From a virus: a DNA stretch of 23,372 nt. The stretch's first letter is position 1, and each line of letters opens with the position of its first letter. A program made the position numbers and the translations under genes. The notes below the pieces were generated by a model. That model was not told the origin of the DNA and did no database searches. It saw nothing but the letters and a program-made list of their open reading frames with translations. The DNA lies in IMG/VR virus record IMGVR_UViG_3300042542_001655, positions 1 through 23,372 of that record; one strand, given 5' to 3'. Positions 2,716 through 19,823 of the stretch are shown piece after piece.

Positions 2716-4610
2716 TGGAGGAAAATAAAAACATACTTCCCGTAATTAAATGGAATGCTTTTAACAATAGAAAGCGTCCTGAATTCGTGGAAATTAAAAA
2801 TACGGATATAATTAAGAGCGGTGAGAAAAACGACTTCCCGTATTACTTGACCGATTTATATCGTCGTAGCGCATTACATTCGGCTATCATCAACGCGAAG
2901 GTGAATTACATCGCAGGTCGTGGATGGACTTTTGAGCGTAGCGCATACATGAGCGTGGCGCAGCGTTCGTTAGCTGAAAATCTAATTAAGCAGCCATTTG
3001 CGGACATGGATTTGACCGAGTCGACGTTACGATGGACGCGCGACTTTGAAATTCACAATATGTTCGCGGTGTTGGTGAAGTGGAGCAAGAATAAGCGCAC
3101 GGCTACGTTAGAACACATCGACGTTGCTAACTTACGCACGAATGAAGATACTACCGAGTTTTATTACACGAGAAAGTGGTATGTAATGAAAAACGGTAAG
3201 CGGATCGAGAATAAAAACTTCGCAGAAGAGAAGGATTATAAGGTTTATCCTGCCTACGATCCTAACGACCGTAATGGTGATCAGATATTTTTCTATTCAG
3301 TGTTCCATCCTGATCAGTACGTGTATTCATTGCCTGTCTATTATGGCGGTGTAACTTGGATCGAGAATCACATTGCCTATTCTGATTTTCAATATCAAAA
3401 TATCACCGCGTCATTCTCACCAATGATGCAGGTTAAGATCTACGGGAATATCCCTGACGAACAAAAGCAGGACGAAATAACGGACGGCATTACAAAGAAT
3501 TTCACAAGTCCGGAAGGTAAGCGAATGATTGTAGGCTTTTATCAAAGCCGTGATAGTTCAACGGACGTGGAGGCTATTAATGTTCCGGATCAGTCAACGC
3601 TTTATAAAGAAGTTGCAGAACAGTCGGAGTTAAATATATGTTCAGCACATGAATTCCCGAAACTGTTATTAGGCATTACCACTGCAGGTGCGTTAGGGCA
3701 GCGTAATGAGTTGGTTGTGATGGAAGAGTCTTTCTACAATCGTTACGTGGTTAGCCGTCAGCGTTGCATTGAGTATGTGTTCAACACAATCGCACATGAT
3801 TTGGGGTTACCTATCAATCTTAAGTTACAGCGCGTTAAATCAGTTGATTGGATGCCGAGCGATACAGCTATCGAGAACGCTTTAGGTGTTGATGGATTGC
3901 GTAAGTACGTGTTATCACGCTTGGGCATGGAGGATTCGCAATACATGAAGTATAGCAACGTGAAGCCTAACGCAAATTTGCAGCTGTTCACAAAGTACGG
4001 TGTTGATGCAGCGAAATATGAGGTGGTGAAGTTTCGCGATTTGGAAACCGAGAACGCGGACGAAGTAGAGGTAAGCGAATCGGATTTTATGACATTCGCA
4101 AAGGCTGAAATAAAGTCATTAGATCGTGTGGTATTGGATTTATTAAACAAGGACGCGTTTATGCCATCAGAGGAAATCGCAAAGGTGGCAAAGGTTTCTA
4201 TCGGTGATGTGAAAGACACGATTGATCGTTTGCGTGAAGCAGGACGCATCAAATACAGCCCTGAAAAGATCGCAGGTGATAAGGTTGGCGCGTATGAGTT
4301 GACCGAGAAAGGTTTGCAGACGCTCGAAGAGAATCCCGCACGAACAGAGCCGTTAAAGGTTATGTACCGTTATGAATTAGGAGCAAACGCACCTAAGTTA
4401 GTTGCAGGTGGTAAGTCGCGTCCGTTTTGCGTAGAATTGATGGATATGAAGCGACTTTATAGCCGTGAGGATATAAACGCGATGAGCGTAGAGGAAGGTC
4501 GCAATGTGTGGAGTCTACGCGGTGGTTGGTACACGAATCCAAATACAGGTGTAGCGCGTCCGCAATGCAGACACACTTGGCAGCAAGTAATCGTTAAAGA
4601 AAGACAGTAA
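2715..4610 (+). CDS. Portal protein with winged-helix-like insert and MuF-like C-terminus
   Basis: A 631-residue protein. Residues 1-430 look like a phage portal: 'YYLTDLYRRSALHSAIINAKVNYIAGRGW' near residues 43-71 is the hallmark N-terminal helix pair, and 'GITTAGALGQRNELVVMEESFYNRYVV' near residues 320-347 fits the long stem helix. The portal ring sits at one capsid vertex and is the gate for DNA packaging and tail attachment. Residues about 470-535 carry a helix-helix-wing pattern ('PSEEIAKVAKVSIGDVKDTIDRLREAGRIKY'). Residues about 568-631 have 'RPFC...YSREDINAM...GGWYTNPNTG...CRHTW', which resembles the C-terminal end of MuF-type minor head proteins and could bind a metal through Cys/His. 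Finding the portal downstream of the capsid gene is not the common order. Confidence 0.75.
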   Translation: MEENKNILPVIKWNAFNNRKRPEFVEIKNTDIIKSGEKNDFPYYLTDLYRRSALHSAIINAKVNYIAGRGWTFERSAYMSVAQRSLAENLIKQPFADMDLTESTLRWTRDFEIHNMFAVLVKWSKNKRTATLEHIDVANLRTNEDTTEFYYTRKWYVMKNGKRIENKNFAEEKDYKVYPAYDPNDRNGDQIFFYSVFHPDQYVYSLPVYYGGVTWIENHIAYSDFQYQNITASFSPMMQVKIYGNIPDEQKQDEITDGITKNFTSPEGKRMIVGFYQSRDSSTDVEAINVPDQSTLYKEVAEQSELNICSAHEFPKLLLGITTAGALGQRNELVVMEESFYNRYVVSRQRCIEYVFNTIAHDLGLPINLKLQRVKSVDWMPSDTAIENALGVDGLRKYVLSRLGMEDSQYMKYSNVKPNANLQLFTKYGVDAAKYEVVKFRDLETENADEVEVSESDFMTFAKAEIKSLDRVVLDLLNKDAFMPSEEIAKVAKVSIGDVKDTIDRLREAGRIKYSPEKIAGDKVGAYELTEKGLQTLEENPARTEPLKVMYRYELGANAPKLVAGGKSRPFCVELMDMKRLYSREDINAMSVEEGRNVWSLRGGWYTNPNTGVARPQCRHTWQQVIVKERQ

Positions 4611-10410: not shown

Positions 10411-10578
10411 ATGAATAAATTTATATCTATCCTACAAAAATACGGGCGTGTAAAAGTTACTGTATATTATAATCGCGATTACAGTAAGCCGTATTCTTTT
10501 ATATCAAAAGATATTAGCGATATTCATCCTATAATGGAATCTACTTCCGATGATGTACACTTTGCAATACCTGATTAA
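10411..10578 (+). CDS. 55-residue hypothetical protein, first early gene
   Basis: An ATG at 10411 opens 55 codons ending with TAA at 10576-10578. The product starts 'MNKFISILQKYGRVKVTVYY' and is rich in Tyr, Ser and Asp; it could form a small beta hairpin followed by a polar helix. It is the first gene after the strong promoter at 10355-10385 with a normal-length leader, so it is probably expressed early. In this position phages often place small proteins that reprogram the host, but the sequence itself shows no function and I recognise no family. The 75 bases after it carry no gene, only a short GC-rich patch (10603-10620) and the CCAAA leader of the next gene. Confidence 0.55.
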   Translation: MNKFISILQKYGRVKVTVYYNRDYSKPYSFISKDISDIHPIMESTSDDVHFAIPD

Positions 10579-10653
10579 AAACTAAAACTAACACCAACGG
10601 GGCGCAGCATCCTACACTGCATTAACTTAAAACCAAACCAAAATTACACGACC

Positions 10654-13825: not shown

Positions 13826-14086
13826 ATGAAAACTCAAAGACAAGCATTGATCACAGCATTTATTCAAGAACGCAATTTAACGACCATTACAGCGTTTAAA
13901 CTAACCGGAAGTATGAAACTACCATCACGTGTAGCAGAGTTCGAGGAAATGGGGTTAAAGTTCAAAAAAGAGCCATCCGTGTTTAAGACGCGATACGGAA
14001 CAAGTGGCAGGTTCACTACCTACACGCTTGTTAATAAGTCCGACGCAAAAAAATTGCTCAAAGGTATGCAGAAAAGTAAAAAGTAG
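13826..14086 (+). CDS. Winged-helix protein (HTH_39-like)
   Basis: An 86-residue basic protein. The pattern 'MKTQRQALITAFIQERNLTTITAFKLTGSMKLPSRVAEFEEMGLKFKKE' (a first helix, 'LTTITA', a helix with 'LPSRVAELxxxG', then a strand) and the wing-like 'TYTLVNK' fit the small phage helix-turn-helix family HTH_39. The role is probably DNA binding, perhaps local regulation or replication. The ATG follows the exonuclease stop by two bases with a weak leader, so it belongs to the same operon. A promoter box begins directly after its stop. Confidence 0.65.
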   Translation: MKTQRQALITAFIQERNLTTITAFKLTGSMKLPSRVAEFEEMGLKFKKEPSVFKTRYGTSGRFTTYTLVNKSDAKKLLKGMQKSKK

Positions 14087-14094
14087 TATATTTG
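14087..14094 (+). promoter_or_regulatory. Candidate promoter -7 box before the folded RNA
   Basis: TATATTTG matches TAnnTTTG exactly and begins directly after the stop of the winged-helix gene. No TTTG is seen 19-21 bases upstream, so the -33 element is missing or weak. Transcription would begin about 14098-14101, exactly at the first arm of the folded RNA segment. Confidence 0.5.
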
Positions 14095-14100
14095 TTCATC

Positions 14101-14189
14101 GTTGCGGTCTCACCTTATTAGCAACTAACAACTTAAATGCCCATTGGCAGAAAGCAGACGTGAGACCCTGTGAGTATGTTGATGGGCAT
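14101..14189 (+). ncRNA. Candidate pseudoknotted RNA element upstream of HNH gene
   Basis: Three perfect complementary arm pairs are packed into 89 bases: GTTGC (14101-14105) with GCAAC (14121-14125); GGTCTCAC (14106-14113) with GTGAGACC (14160-14167); and ATGCCCAT (14137-14144) with ATGGGCAT (14182-14189). The second pair crosses the first and the third, so the fold would be an interlocked double pseudoknot rather than simple hairpins. It begins right where the promoter box at 14087 would start transcription and ends 12 bases before the HNH start codon. It may be a regulatory leader, a ribozyme-like element or a small RNA. I do not recognise a known riboswitch or intron core. The fold is predicted by eye. 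Confidence 0.5.
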
Positions 14190-14201
14190 ATTTATTTTAC
14201 A

Positions 14202-14744
14202 ATGGCTAAGAAAAAAATTCCGCAATTTGAACATTATTCAGTAGATGAATATGGAGTAGTTATCAATGAAAAAACAGGAAGAATAAGAAAGAAAGGTAAG
14301 AACAAAAAGGGTTATGAATTAGTAATGCTAAGTAATAATGGCATAACAAAAAGCTTTGTAGTTCACCGCCTTGTTTATGAATGTTTTGTTGGTGAGATTC
14401 CGGACAAATTAGAAATTAATCACATTGACGCTAATAAATCAAATAATCATATTAGCAACTTAGAATTAGTTACTCATACAGAAAACATTCAGAAAGCTGT
14501 TGAGATGGGTTTATTTCGTTCAGGAGCAACACATAAACTATCAAAAAAGATAGTAGCAATGGATCGAAATTTTGAGCATTATAATTTTGATTCTATTGGT
14601 CAAGCATGTAAGGCGTTAAAATTAAGACATACTGATATTTGGCGTGTATTGACAAGAAAGTGCAAGACTGCTAAAGGTTATGAATTTTATTATTGGGAGG
14701 ATTTTTATGGAACGGAAGAAGAAAGACTTCGCTGTCCTTTTTAA
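14202..14744 (+). CDS. HNH homing endonuclease (NUMOD4-HNH-NUMOD1)
   Basis: 180 residues from ATG 14202; the frame is open further upstream, but that part reads through the folded RNA and the winged-helix gene, so it is not coding. Residues 8-55 resemble NUMOD4 ('EHYSVDEYGVVINEKTG', 'GYELVMLSNNGITKSFVVHRLVY'). The HNH core is at residues 55-90, with H74, N79/N82 and N86 ('INHIDANKSNNHISNLELV'). Residues 115-167 resemble a NUMOD1 DNA-binding end. Such endonucleases cut DNA lacking their own gene and spread between phages. It is strongly AT-rich. Its last 38 bases overlap the replication initiator gene. Confidence 0.85.
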   Translation: MAKKKIPQFEHYSVDEYGVVINEKTGRIRKKGKNKKGYELVMLSNNGITKSFVVHRLVYECFVGEIPDKLEINHIDANKSNNHISNLELVTHTENIQKAVEMGLFRSGATHKLSKKIVAMDRNFEHYNFDSIGQACKALKLRHTDIWRVLTRKCKTAKGYEFYYWEDFYGTEEERLRCPF

Positions 14745-15525
14745 TATCGACAAGTGGCTTAAAGCTACTGCCGGAATGGATGCAGATGCGAGGGGGTGGT
14801 ATGTAAATTTACTGCTTCATCAGTACGACAAAAATGGATTGCCAAATAATTTGGAGGATTTGGCTTTACTTGCGGGTGTGAGATTTTCCGAGTTCGGAAG
14901 ATTTGAACATGTGTTCCAACATGTGTTGAAACAAAAGTTTCCTGTTTGCGAAGATGATAAATTAAGAAATCCTATTATGAATGAGATCATGATGGAACGA
15001 AATAATTTTCAAGACAAAAGAATTAAAGCAGGAAAAGTAAGTATAGCACTAAAGAAATATAGGTGTTCAGAGAGTTACAATGAGGATTGTGAATCATATT
15101 TTAAGTCATTAATTGATGAAAATACTGATATCAATAATGAACAAGTGTTCCAACACATGTTAGAAATGTGTTCCCAACACCTTATAAGTAGAAGTAGAAA
15201 TATAGAATTAATAAATAATAAGATAGGGGGTGTGGGGGAAAGACCTAACTACACACCATCATTATACAACCAACACGTCGAAGTTGATCAGTTAAAACCG
15301 ATCCTAATGCAGCGAACATCATGGCGCGACATTCAGCAACGCAACGGCAAGTACACGGATGAACAATTCGAGATAACGGTGAACGCTTTTATTTTACATT
15401 TGAAGGAGAAAGGCGAACTAACCAAGACTCCAAAGGACGCGCGATTCCATTACAATAATTTTGCTAAGTTAAAGCGATCAGAAAAGACAGTTGTAAAAGC
15501 ACCGGCATACAGAAAATTAGACTAA
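14707..15525 (+). CDS. Replication initiator (DUF1376 / DnaD-like organisation)
   Basis: 272 residues from ATG 14707, seven bases after a GGGAGG Shine-Dalgarno; an upstream ATG at 14680 adds nine unlikely residues. Residues 1-75 ('FNIDKWLKATAGMDADARGWYVNLLLHQYDKNGLPNNLEDLALLAG') match the winged-helix start of phage replication initiators of the DUF1376 type. The C-terminus ('DARFHYNNFAKLKR', residues 244-257) resembles the helicase-loading end. Location before DnaB supports origin melting or helicase loading. Bases up to about 15235 are AT-rich, and from there the composition switches to that of the phage backbone, so the gene looks chimeric. Repeated segments around 14907 and 15141 may be origin repeats. 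Confidence 0.7.
   Translation: MERKKKDFAVLFNIDKWLKATAGMDADARGWYVNLLLHQYDKNGLPNNLEDLALLAGVRFSEFGRFEHVFQHVLKQKFPVCEDDKLRNPIMNEIMMERNNFQDKRIKAGKVSIALKKYRCSESYNEDCESYFKSLIDENTDINNEQVFQHMLEMCSQHLISRSRNIELINNKIGGVGERPNYTPSLYNQHVEVDQLKPILMQRTSWRDIQQRNGKYTDEQFEITVNAFILHLKEKGELTKTPKDARFHYNNFAKLKRSEKTVVKAPAYRKLD
14907..15180 (+). repeat. 12-base repeats inside the initiator gene
   Basis: ACATGTGTTCCA (14907-14918) and ACATGTGTTGAA (14919-14930) are tandem copies; related copies follow at 15141-15176 (ACAAGTGTTCCA, ACACATGTTAGA, AATGTGTTCCCA). They are in frame and give the protein motif V-F-Q-H twice. Their placement resembles origin iterons located inside an initiator gene, as in phage lambda O, but a purely protein-level repeat explains them too. 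Confidence 0.35.
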
Positions 15526-15716: not shown

Positions 15717-15724
15717 GCCTTACC

Positions 15725-15807
15725 GCTAACGTTTGGCAGATAAGCGAAGGCACAAATAGCGTTGGCTTGTGCGGTTGGATTTGGGCTTTTGCTTATGTGC
15801 TGTTAGC
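15725..15807 (+). repeat. Long imperfect palindrome in the 15717-15906 gap
   Basis: GCTAAC (15725-15730) pairs with GTTAGC (15802-15807); GCAGATAAGC (15736-15745) pairs with GCTTATGTGC (15791-15800) with one mismatch; and inside, GCACAA (15750-15755) pairs with TTGTGC (15767-15772). The result is a long nested stem. It resembles the GCTAACGTTTGGC-type intergenic repeats I recall from Bacteroidota chromosomes, which is from memory. It may act as a terminator (T-rich stretch follows) or be a small mobile repeat. No gene was seen in 15717-15906 apart from this and the promoters. Confidence 0.65.
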
Positions 15808-15872
15808 TACTGTTTTTATTCTCTTTGATTATCAGCACTTTAGAAAATAATTTAAAAATATCTTTGAAAAAG

Positions 15873-15906: not shown

Positions 15907-16143
15907 ATGAAAATTCAATTAGAACAGATCAAAGGAACATTAAGAGATAGAGTTGATGCTGCTATTTCTCAATTAGAAAATGAAAAATGTGAAGTAATTG
16001 CATTTTTTAAATTTAACGATATTGACCATCAATATTCTTGGAGAAGCAAAGGAACTTATGTAGCGATAAGATATATAGCACCACATCACGGATTTCAACA
16101 ATATGCAGACAAAAGAATATACTTTGAAAAAGTTAAAAAATAA
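15907..16143 (+). CDS. 78-residue hypothetical protein
   Basis: 78 residues from ATG 15907, five bases after the promoter's -7 box; an earlier ATG at 15874 lies inside the promoter and is unlikely. It has an N-terminal helix ('LEQIKGTLRDRVDAAISQLENEK', residues 5-27) followed by beta strands ('CEVIAFFKFNDIDHQYSW', 'GTYVAIRYIAPHHGF'). The His and Tyr content is notable. It is very AT-rich. Its end overlaps the next small gene by 41 bases. No family recognised; the promoter position suggests separate expression, as for a moron or host-acting gene. Confidence 0.55.
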   Translation: MKIQLEQIKGTLRDRVDAAISQLENEKCEVIAFFKFNDIDHQYSWRSKGTYVAIRYIAPHHGFQQYADKRIYFEKVKK

Positions 16144-16288
16144 ACGTGGAGGCACTCGGCAAGGTTCGGGTGCTAAACCTAAATACAACGAGCAAACTAA
16201 AACAGTTGCTTTTCGCTGCCCATTGTCAAAAGTTGATGAACTAAAATTAATTATCAAGTCTAAACTTTCGGAGTGGTCAGTAAAATAG
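16103..16288 (+). CDS. 61-residue basic protein, possible small DNA-binding
   Basis: The pattern 'NKRGGTRQGSGAKPKYNEQTKTVAFRCPLSKVDELKLIIKSKLSEW' (residues 13-58) matches the widespread basic 'RGGxRxGAGRPK' N-terminus followed by a ribbon-helix-helix-like strand and helix, found in many phage and mobile-element proteins. The family is usually a small DNA-binding regulator. The frame overlaps the previous gene by 41 bases; a TTG at codon 8 (16124) would shorten the overlap. The 77 bases after it contain no gene; TATATTAG at about 16340 may be a weak promoter for dnaB. Confidence 0.6.
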   Translation: MQTKEYTLKKLKNKRGGTRQGSGAKPKYNEQTKTVAFRCPLSKVDELKLIIKSKLSEWSVK

Positions 16289-16365
16289 CAGCTAACTTGT
16301 AAATACACGCAACTGCATTCGCACATCCCGAAAATCATTATATTAGCAAATCAAAACCAAACCAA

Positions 16366-19271: not shown

Positions 19272-19823
19272 GTGAATCGAGATCAGATTATCGCAGAATT
19301 GTATACTCACAAAGAACTTAAACGTGCTTTGCGAAAGTATGCGATTAGCGCGGAAACACGCGACGATCTTTGGCACTATGTTATTGAGGCAGTTTGCAAG
19401 TTACCTGAAGAAAGTTTGTTGCAGTTACATTCATCAGGACGATTAAAGCACTACGCGTTTATTACTTTGCGGAATTTAGCAGGTAACACGCGTAGTGTTT
19501 ACTTCAAAGAGTGCGGCTTGAATGAGTTTAAGTTGACAATGGACGAAGTGGATGTGATAGCGGATGAAGAGGACGTGGATCAGTTGCCAGTTATCGAAAT
19601 GGATCAATTCAAAGCGTTCTTAGATTATGCAGCGCGTGAACGTACTGATATTACGATGGAGGCTATTGTTACGCGTGAATATATTAATTACACACCTATT
19701 AAGCGTAGAAGCTATCGGGACTTTCAAATAGTAACCGGAATACATTATAGCAGCGTTTGCGTGTACGTTAAACGAATGGTAAAAGAATTTAACCAAAACC
19801 AAAACCAATGCGTATCTCATTAG
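19272..19823 (+). CDS. Phage sigma-70-like factor
   Basis: 183 residues from GTG 19272. Residues 10-75 ('YTHKELKRALRKYAISAETRDDLWHYVIEAVCKLPEESLLQLHSSGRLKHYAFITLRNL') resemble sigma-70 region 2 of small phage sigma factors. Residues 146-172 ('KRRSYRDFQIVTGIHYSSVCVYVKRMVKEF') look like the region-4 helix-turn-helix that binds -35 type DNA. It could redirect host RNA polymerase to late phage promoters, which would explain why no TAnnTTTG box is seen before the structural genes. The end 'NQNQNQ' is encoded by the CCAAAA leader of the next gene, which overlaps this gene by 16 bases. Confidence 0.6.
   Translation: MNRDQIIAELYTHKELKRALRKYAISAETRDDLWHYVIEAVCKLPEESLLQLHSSGRLKHYAFITLRNLAGNTRSVYFKECGLNEFKLTMDEVDVIADEEDVDQLPVIEMDQFKAFLDYAARERTDITMEAIVTREYINYTPIKRRSYRDFQIVTGIHYSSVCVYVKRMVKEFNQNQNQCVSH

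Follow-up and report, generated by a model that had tools for sequence, protein, structure and literature searches.

Results

Genes and promoter at the locus

The window, i.e. the whole stretch of 23,372 nucleotides analysed (positions 1 to 23,372 of IMG/VR virus record IMGVR_UViG_3300042542_001655), carries three consecutive genes of interest on the + strand. The first encodes a winged-helix HTH_39 protein of 86 aa (13826-14086; Pfam PF14090, 6.7e-6) and could be aligned in the relatives. The second encodes an HNH_3 / I-HmuI-type NUMOD endonuclease (14202-14744; Pfam). The third encodes a replication-initiation or primosomal protein with a DUF1376-like N-terminal and a DUF7833 C-terminal part (14707-15525). 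This replication gene is the gene that usually follows the RNA described below, and the HNH gene is an insertion between the leader and the replication gene that lies outside the RNA. The likely start of the replication gene lies inside the 3' end of the HNH gene (14707-14744, 38-bp overlap). Furthermore, the HNH start ATGGCTAAGAAA copies the usual replication-gene start of the relatives.

The 3' end of the HTH_39 gene holds the -33 region of a promoter. In an alignment of 14 leaders, this region contains the element TATG (14065-14068; TTTG in several relatives), which we take to be the -33 element from what is known of Bacteroidota promoters. A spacer of 18 nt separates it from the -7 box TATATTTG (14087-14094), giving a promoter of the type TTTG-N18-TATATTTG. 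The box, which the first-pass annotation had noted as a TAnnTTTG box just before the first pairing arm, is indeed present with a gap of 6 nt to that arm. It showed small changes only in 14 of 14 leaders, and its distance to the first helix (P1) was 6-8 nt in all of them, irrespective of the RNA type. The geometry of Bacteroidota promoters presumably places the transcription start at P1 or a few nt before it.

Predicted fold of the leader

Three perfect arm pairs of 5, 8 and 8 bp had been claimed between the box and the HNH gene, the second pair crossing the other two. Arms and crossing pattern were recovered exactly, with a total span of 89 nt. P1 pairs GTTGC (14101-14105) with GCAAC (14121-14125) and forms a hairpin at the predicted 5' end of the transcript. 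P3 pairs ATGCCCAT (14137-14144), which varied little in sequence, with ATGGGCAT (14182-14189). Helix 2 pairs GGTCTCAC (14106-14113), within the P1 loop, with GTGAGACC (14160-14167), within the apical loop of P4, and thus crosses P1 and P3 by joining the loop of one hairpin with the loop of the next. P4 consists of GCAG (14154-14157) and CTGT (14168-14171), which frame the 3' arm of helix 2; its first pair is G.U in the window and A-U in L005. The minimum-free-energy fold adds an inner extension of P3 (TGGCA, 14145-14149, with TGTTG, 14177-14181; five pairs, three of them G.U), which is invariant and therefore outside the reach of a covariation test. A U-rich linker, ATTTATTTTACA (14190-14201), leads from P3 to the start codon, and its first 10 nt are invariant among RNAs of this type (type A). 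The distance from the end of P3 to the ATG is 12 nt in the window and in type B (see below), and 15 nt in L007-L009.

Nested folding of three type A sequences predicted the P1 hairpin and a long P3/P4 hairpin in all three, with both helix-2 arms in or facing hairpin loops. Because both arms fall in hairpin loops, the modelled element is better named a loop-loop (kissing-hairpin) pseudoknot, with an 8-bp kissing helix as its tertiary contact. The minimum free energy was 2.5 SD below that of shuffled sequences in the window, and only 1.3 SD below in L028.

A mini-ORF, ATGCCCATTGGCAGAAAGCAGACGTGA (MPIGRKQT*, 14137-14163), begins at the first base of the P3 5' arm. It was rejected as a conserved peptide (ATGCCC...TGA), being kept in the group 1 phages and without its stop in group 2. 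An open reading frame across the leader in the frame of the HNH gene was likewise rejected, as stops in L007 and L028 show that it is not conserved.

The first-pass annotation held that such interlocking was unlikely by chance. This stood as far as the expected frequency is concerned, which was 0.01 per dinucleotide-shuffled window (100 shuffles, one strand). However, the window contains a second perfect 5/8/8 interlock at 19395-19497, within a coding gene. In an alignment of four relatives read by eye, this second interlock showed no compensatory pair, and its few differences fit the drift of coding sequence; it is probably due to chance. Hence, perfect arms alone are suggestive, and the proof has to come from covariation.

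Relatives and covariation of the type A leader

Searches of IMG/VR yielded an identical copy (L001) and six relatives (L005-L010) with the element at the same place. None of these six has the HNH gene, and the RNA immediately precedes the replication gene. A scan for GCCCATTGGCAGAAA revealed a second group in more distant phages (L021, L028, L040, L047, L071), whose proteins are 47% (YqaJ) and 59-60% (DnaB) identical to those of the window. The RNA of the second group matched the window in 87 of 101 columns (about 86%), compared with about 68% DNA identity in dnaB. Hence, the RNA is more conserved than the neighbouring genes. In total, about nine distinct type A and three distinct type B sequences are known.

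Covariation of type A was tested on six distinct sequences. In helix 2, four of the eight pairs were changed on both sides (G-C/C-G twice, C-G/U-A and U-A/C-G) and none was broken. None of 500 shuffled controls matched the covariation score, 3-4 of 500 matched the count of both-side changes, and the signal was lost when the partners were slid against each other. P1 showed no variation among the sequences tested, and P3 showed one change from U-A to U.G and one pair broken in two relatives. As the arms of P1 and P3 hardly vary, the covariation of type A comes almost wholly from the kissing helix. Between the window and L028, the aligned RNA differs by 12 base substitutions, of which 6 fall in the kissing helix and are all complementary. 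Hardly any change is seen in the internal loops TGGCAGAAAG and (T/G)AGTATGTTG. Under random placement, the probability of the matched changes was about 0.0007 for window/L028, 0.004 for window/L005 and 0.0008 for L135/L261 (type B); these are simple comparisons that are not fully independent.

Across types A and B, four of four one-sided changes that preserve pairing do so through G.U on the + strand, whereas on the opposite strand the same four would be A.C mismatches. This favours a + strand RNA over a feature of double-stranded DNA or of the minus strand. The absence of compensatory changes in the arms among homologues had been named beforehand as evidence against the element; instead, half of the helix-2 pairs proved compensatory. 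The proposal of a structured RNA was thereby borne out, for an RNA that begins at the promoter box. Since related phages change both partners together, the comparison indicates that the element folds as two hairpins with locked loops.

A second, dissimilar leader at the same promoter

L135 and L139-L142 share the promoter box but carry a different RNA (type B) behind it, one in which model R1 saw no similarity. Its 5' hairpin is GGTC(GTAGCT)GACC, and the loop GTAGCT pairs with AGCTAC about 85 nt downstream, which sits inside the helices AATCCCGT/ACGGGATT and AACACGG/CCGTGTT. In L261, the kissing arms GTAGCT/AGCTAC are replaced by CTGACA/TGTCAG. Six pairs of type B are changed on both sides, four of them in the kissing helix (of six pairs), one in P1 and one in P4. 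Type B thus has the same topology as type A with dissimilar sequence, and ends exactly 12 nt before the ATG. When L028 was compared with L135, L139 and L261 (about 90% identical), the DNA alignment ended at the promoter box and resumed within the replication gene. This break implies that the leader cassette was replaced from the transcription start onward.

Type B also contains a short open frame of about 34 codons (MSQAIYYNPVWGALTRRVDLSQQLPVLNTSTGFTF / MIAISYDPVWGILTRRVDLSQLSVVLNTSTGFTF; L135:6903-7038, L139, L261:1798-1932). It covers most of the RNA, stops just before the next ATG and shows several synonymous third-position differences. These differences suggest that type B may encode a small protein besides folding. 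In the pseudoknot arm, the amino acids are altered so as to preserve the pairing.

Exchange of genes behind the leader

The replication gene combines exchangeable N-terminal parts (DUF1376, Lin1244_N, HTH_36, DUF6291 and others) with a DUF7833 C-terminal part, and PHROGs names the products primosomal or replication initiation proteins. Modular recombination is strong: the N-terminal DNA-binding modules vary, and the DUF7833 end remains constant (window 14707-15525, L005, L006, L007, L009, L028, L135). One N-terminal module is common to L006 (type A) and L261 (type B), and another to the window and L139. These shared modules imply that RNA type and protein module are exchanged independently. 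In total, the RNA precedes at least five different N-terminal modules of the initiator as well as the HNH gene, and is therefore not dependent on the downstream protein.

The slot between leader and replication gene has twice received an endonuclease gene, HNH in the window and GIY-YIG in L139-L142. In L139, behind a type B leader, the GIY-YIG domain gene lies at 3560-3859 in this slot.

Database and literature searches

The first-pass annotation recognised no known RNA class, in agreement with our scan of the window against Rfam 15, which gave no match at the gathering threshold. At permissive thresholds, types A and B gave chance-level matches only. No further copies were found within the phage, each phage having one copy. 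Models of both RNA types, run against 296 Bacteroidota genomes, returned only chance-level matches in AT-rich sequence. A search of 198 Bacteroidota genomes for DUF7833 genes, as a source of more leaders, found none. Cultured-phage and plasmid collections contained no homologue by DNA similarity, and the human-gut phages with the nearest DnaB (L242-L244) gave no model match.

Two known kinds of RNA were considered and rejected. Type III toxin-antitoxin RNAs are tandem pseudoknot repeats before a toxin gene, whereas here a single copy precedes a replication gene. The hammerhead core CUGANGA was sought by eye and is not conserved. In the literature searched, nothing relevant to leaders with a kissing loop or pseudoknot in phages of Bacteroidota came up, and no description of this RNA. 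In a survey of candidate RNAs that we checked for similar phage pseudoknots (PMC2864571), only the STAXI motif was loosely comparable. The STAXI pseudoknot occurs in two or three repeats near DNA-handling genes (PMC2864571); the phage RNA shares this neighbourhood, but is a single-copy leader with different sequences.

Other features of the window

Three further stretches stood out in the comparison with the relatives. A noncoding palindromic stretch at 15720-15835 (TAACGTTTGGCAGATAAGC...GCTTATGTGCTGTTAGC) is about 89% identical to L021, is missing from L005 and looks like an integron attC site or like a small mobile element. At 16128-16335, a gene of 61 aa (16103-16288) together with the stretch after it reaches 87-89% DNA identity to the distant L021 and L028, whereas the dnaB gene next to it stands much lower (about 68%). 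Finally, upstream of small early genes, a short noncoding block at 10577-10640 (CGGGGCGCAGCATCC...) is kept in L005, L028 and L139, and is a possible further regulatory element.

Discussion

As in a cis-acting 5' leader, the RNA is flanked by a promoter box and an ATG in all leaders examined, and its secondary structure is kept through compensatory change. We think it reasonably probable that the element is a cis-acting structured 5' leader, about 100 nt long, of the replication-initiation operon of Bacteroidota phages, which would most likely gate translation initiation or act as a standby structure for it. Transcription would start at P1 or a few nt before it, from the TATATTTG box. The RNA would then fold into a short 5'-terminal hairpin, P1, and the long P3/P4 hairpin, whose loops would pair as the 8-bp kissing helix. 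This compact fold would end 12-15 nt before the start codon, which corresponds to the edge of the ribosome footprint. It is chiefly this fixed distance to the ATG that argues for a role at initiation. We found neither an alternative sequestering structure nor a ligand site, hence gating of translation is what we infer. Most likely, the leader would act in cis on whatever gene follows, and it may also protect the 5' end of the transcript. The near-invariant nucleotides of the internal loops (GAAA, GAGUA and neighbours) could be the contact site for a regulator, which might be a small molecule or a protein of phage or host. The HNH gene would be a later insertion that borrows the leader.

The first-pass annotation suggested that the element might control the HNH/initiator message. 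The initiator part of this suggestion fits our results, and the RNA probably controls expression of the replication gene; a special tie to HNH does not fit, because the RNA is kept without HNH. In favour of its other suggestion, a relic or partner of a mobile intron-like unit, an I-HmuI-like NUMOD HNH gene lies directly after the RNA, and a GIY-YIG gene takes the equivalent place after the type B leader of L139. This reading was contradicted by the relatives, which retain the RNA without HNH in six close phages and in the second group (L005-L010, L021, L028, L047, L071), in contrast to an HNH-associated mobile RNA of the intron or HEARO kind. Moreover, endonucleases of two unrelated families behind two unrelated RNAs imply that the slot attracts endonucleases and that the RNA is not theirs; we regard a mobile-unit origin as extremely improbable. 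Chance complementarity of the arms can hardly be maintained either. The perfect interlock in coding DNA would speak for it, but it is already contradicted by the compensatory changes that two unrelated RNA types show at one slot.

The main rival to a cis-acting leader is an attenuator or a separate small RNA ending at the U-rich tract. Here, P3/P4 and the tract (ATTTATTTT, or TACTTTTT in type B) would terminate transcription, and the RNA of ~100 nt would act in trans or limit read-through into the replication gene. The tract does not vary within type A and is rich in U in type B as well, and a GC-cored helix immediately precedes it. However, a terminator scan found none, and the constant short distance to the ATG suggests coupling to that gene. 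In addition, relatives such as L005 have no other promoter box from the RNA to the gene, so that the transcript must run through into the gene. We therefore consider termination at the tract unlikely, though not negligible. The compact pseudoknotted fold of the leader and the near-invariant internal-loop nucleotides would agree with an undescribed class of ligand-binding riboswitch or of self-cleaving ribozyme. Against it, Rfam gave no match at gathering or permissive thresholds, no known ribozyme family was found, riboswitches do not usually act on replication initiators, and the phage has neither metabolic genes with it nor a second copy; we judge this quite doubtful. Still less probable is a fold that works as single-stranded DNA, for instance as part of a replication origin. 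The element does adjoin the replication-initiation gene, and covariation would preserve such a fold equally. Yet the four one-sided changes pair only through G.U on the + strand, the element is bounded by the promoter box just before and the ATG just after it, no iterons were seen, and in type B a short open frame covers most of the element.

Beyond the cis-acting leader, types A and B might belong to a series of interchangeable kissing-hairpin cassettes without homology to one another, with phages swapping one leader for the next at the replication-operon promoter. Divergence of the loop-loop code would then make regulation specific to each phage and prevent cross-regulation between co-infecting relatives. 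We offer this as a long shot.

These results describe an undescribed RNA family supported by covariation, which controls, or at least precedes, the first committed replication step of Bacteroidota phages. To our knowledge, little is known of control at the RNA level in these phages. Two dissimilar RNAs of one kissing topology that replace each other at the same transcription start in nearly identical phages constitute a natural experiment, through which the function becomes directly testable by swapping leaders.

Several known systems share features with the phage RNA. Pseudoknots occur in the leaders of the S15 and S4/alpha ribosomal-protein operons, where they bind a ribosomal protein that the operon itself encodes. 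Like the phage RNA, these are pseudoknotted mRNA leaders just upstream of, or touching, the initiation region; in contrast, the phage RNA is a candidate leader without a known binder and has a loop-loop pseudoknot. Furthermore, hosts of the Bacteroidota type make little use of Shine-Dalgarno control, in contrast to the hosts of the S15 and S4/alpha systems. HEARO and other HNH-associated RNAs lie upstream of an HNH gene, as does the RNA in the window, but the phage RNA persists without HNH, is much shorter and has no Rfam match. In topology, type B comes closest to the Pistol ribozyme, in which a 5' hairpin of about 5 bp has a 6-nt loop that pairs into a stem further downstream. The phage RNA differs from Pistol in that it has no Rfam match, its kissing partner lies inside an extra helix, P4, and the position of P3 is different; a conserved cleavage-site context as in Pistol was not found in it. 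Loop-loop helices of 6-8 bp are likewise known from ColE1 RNAI/RNAII and TAR-TAR*, and in type B the loop of 6 nt is wholly paired. In contrast to these systems, the phage loops kiss within one RNA, and the partners covary in the same transcript.
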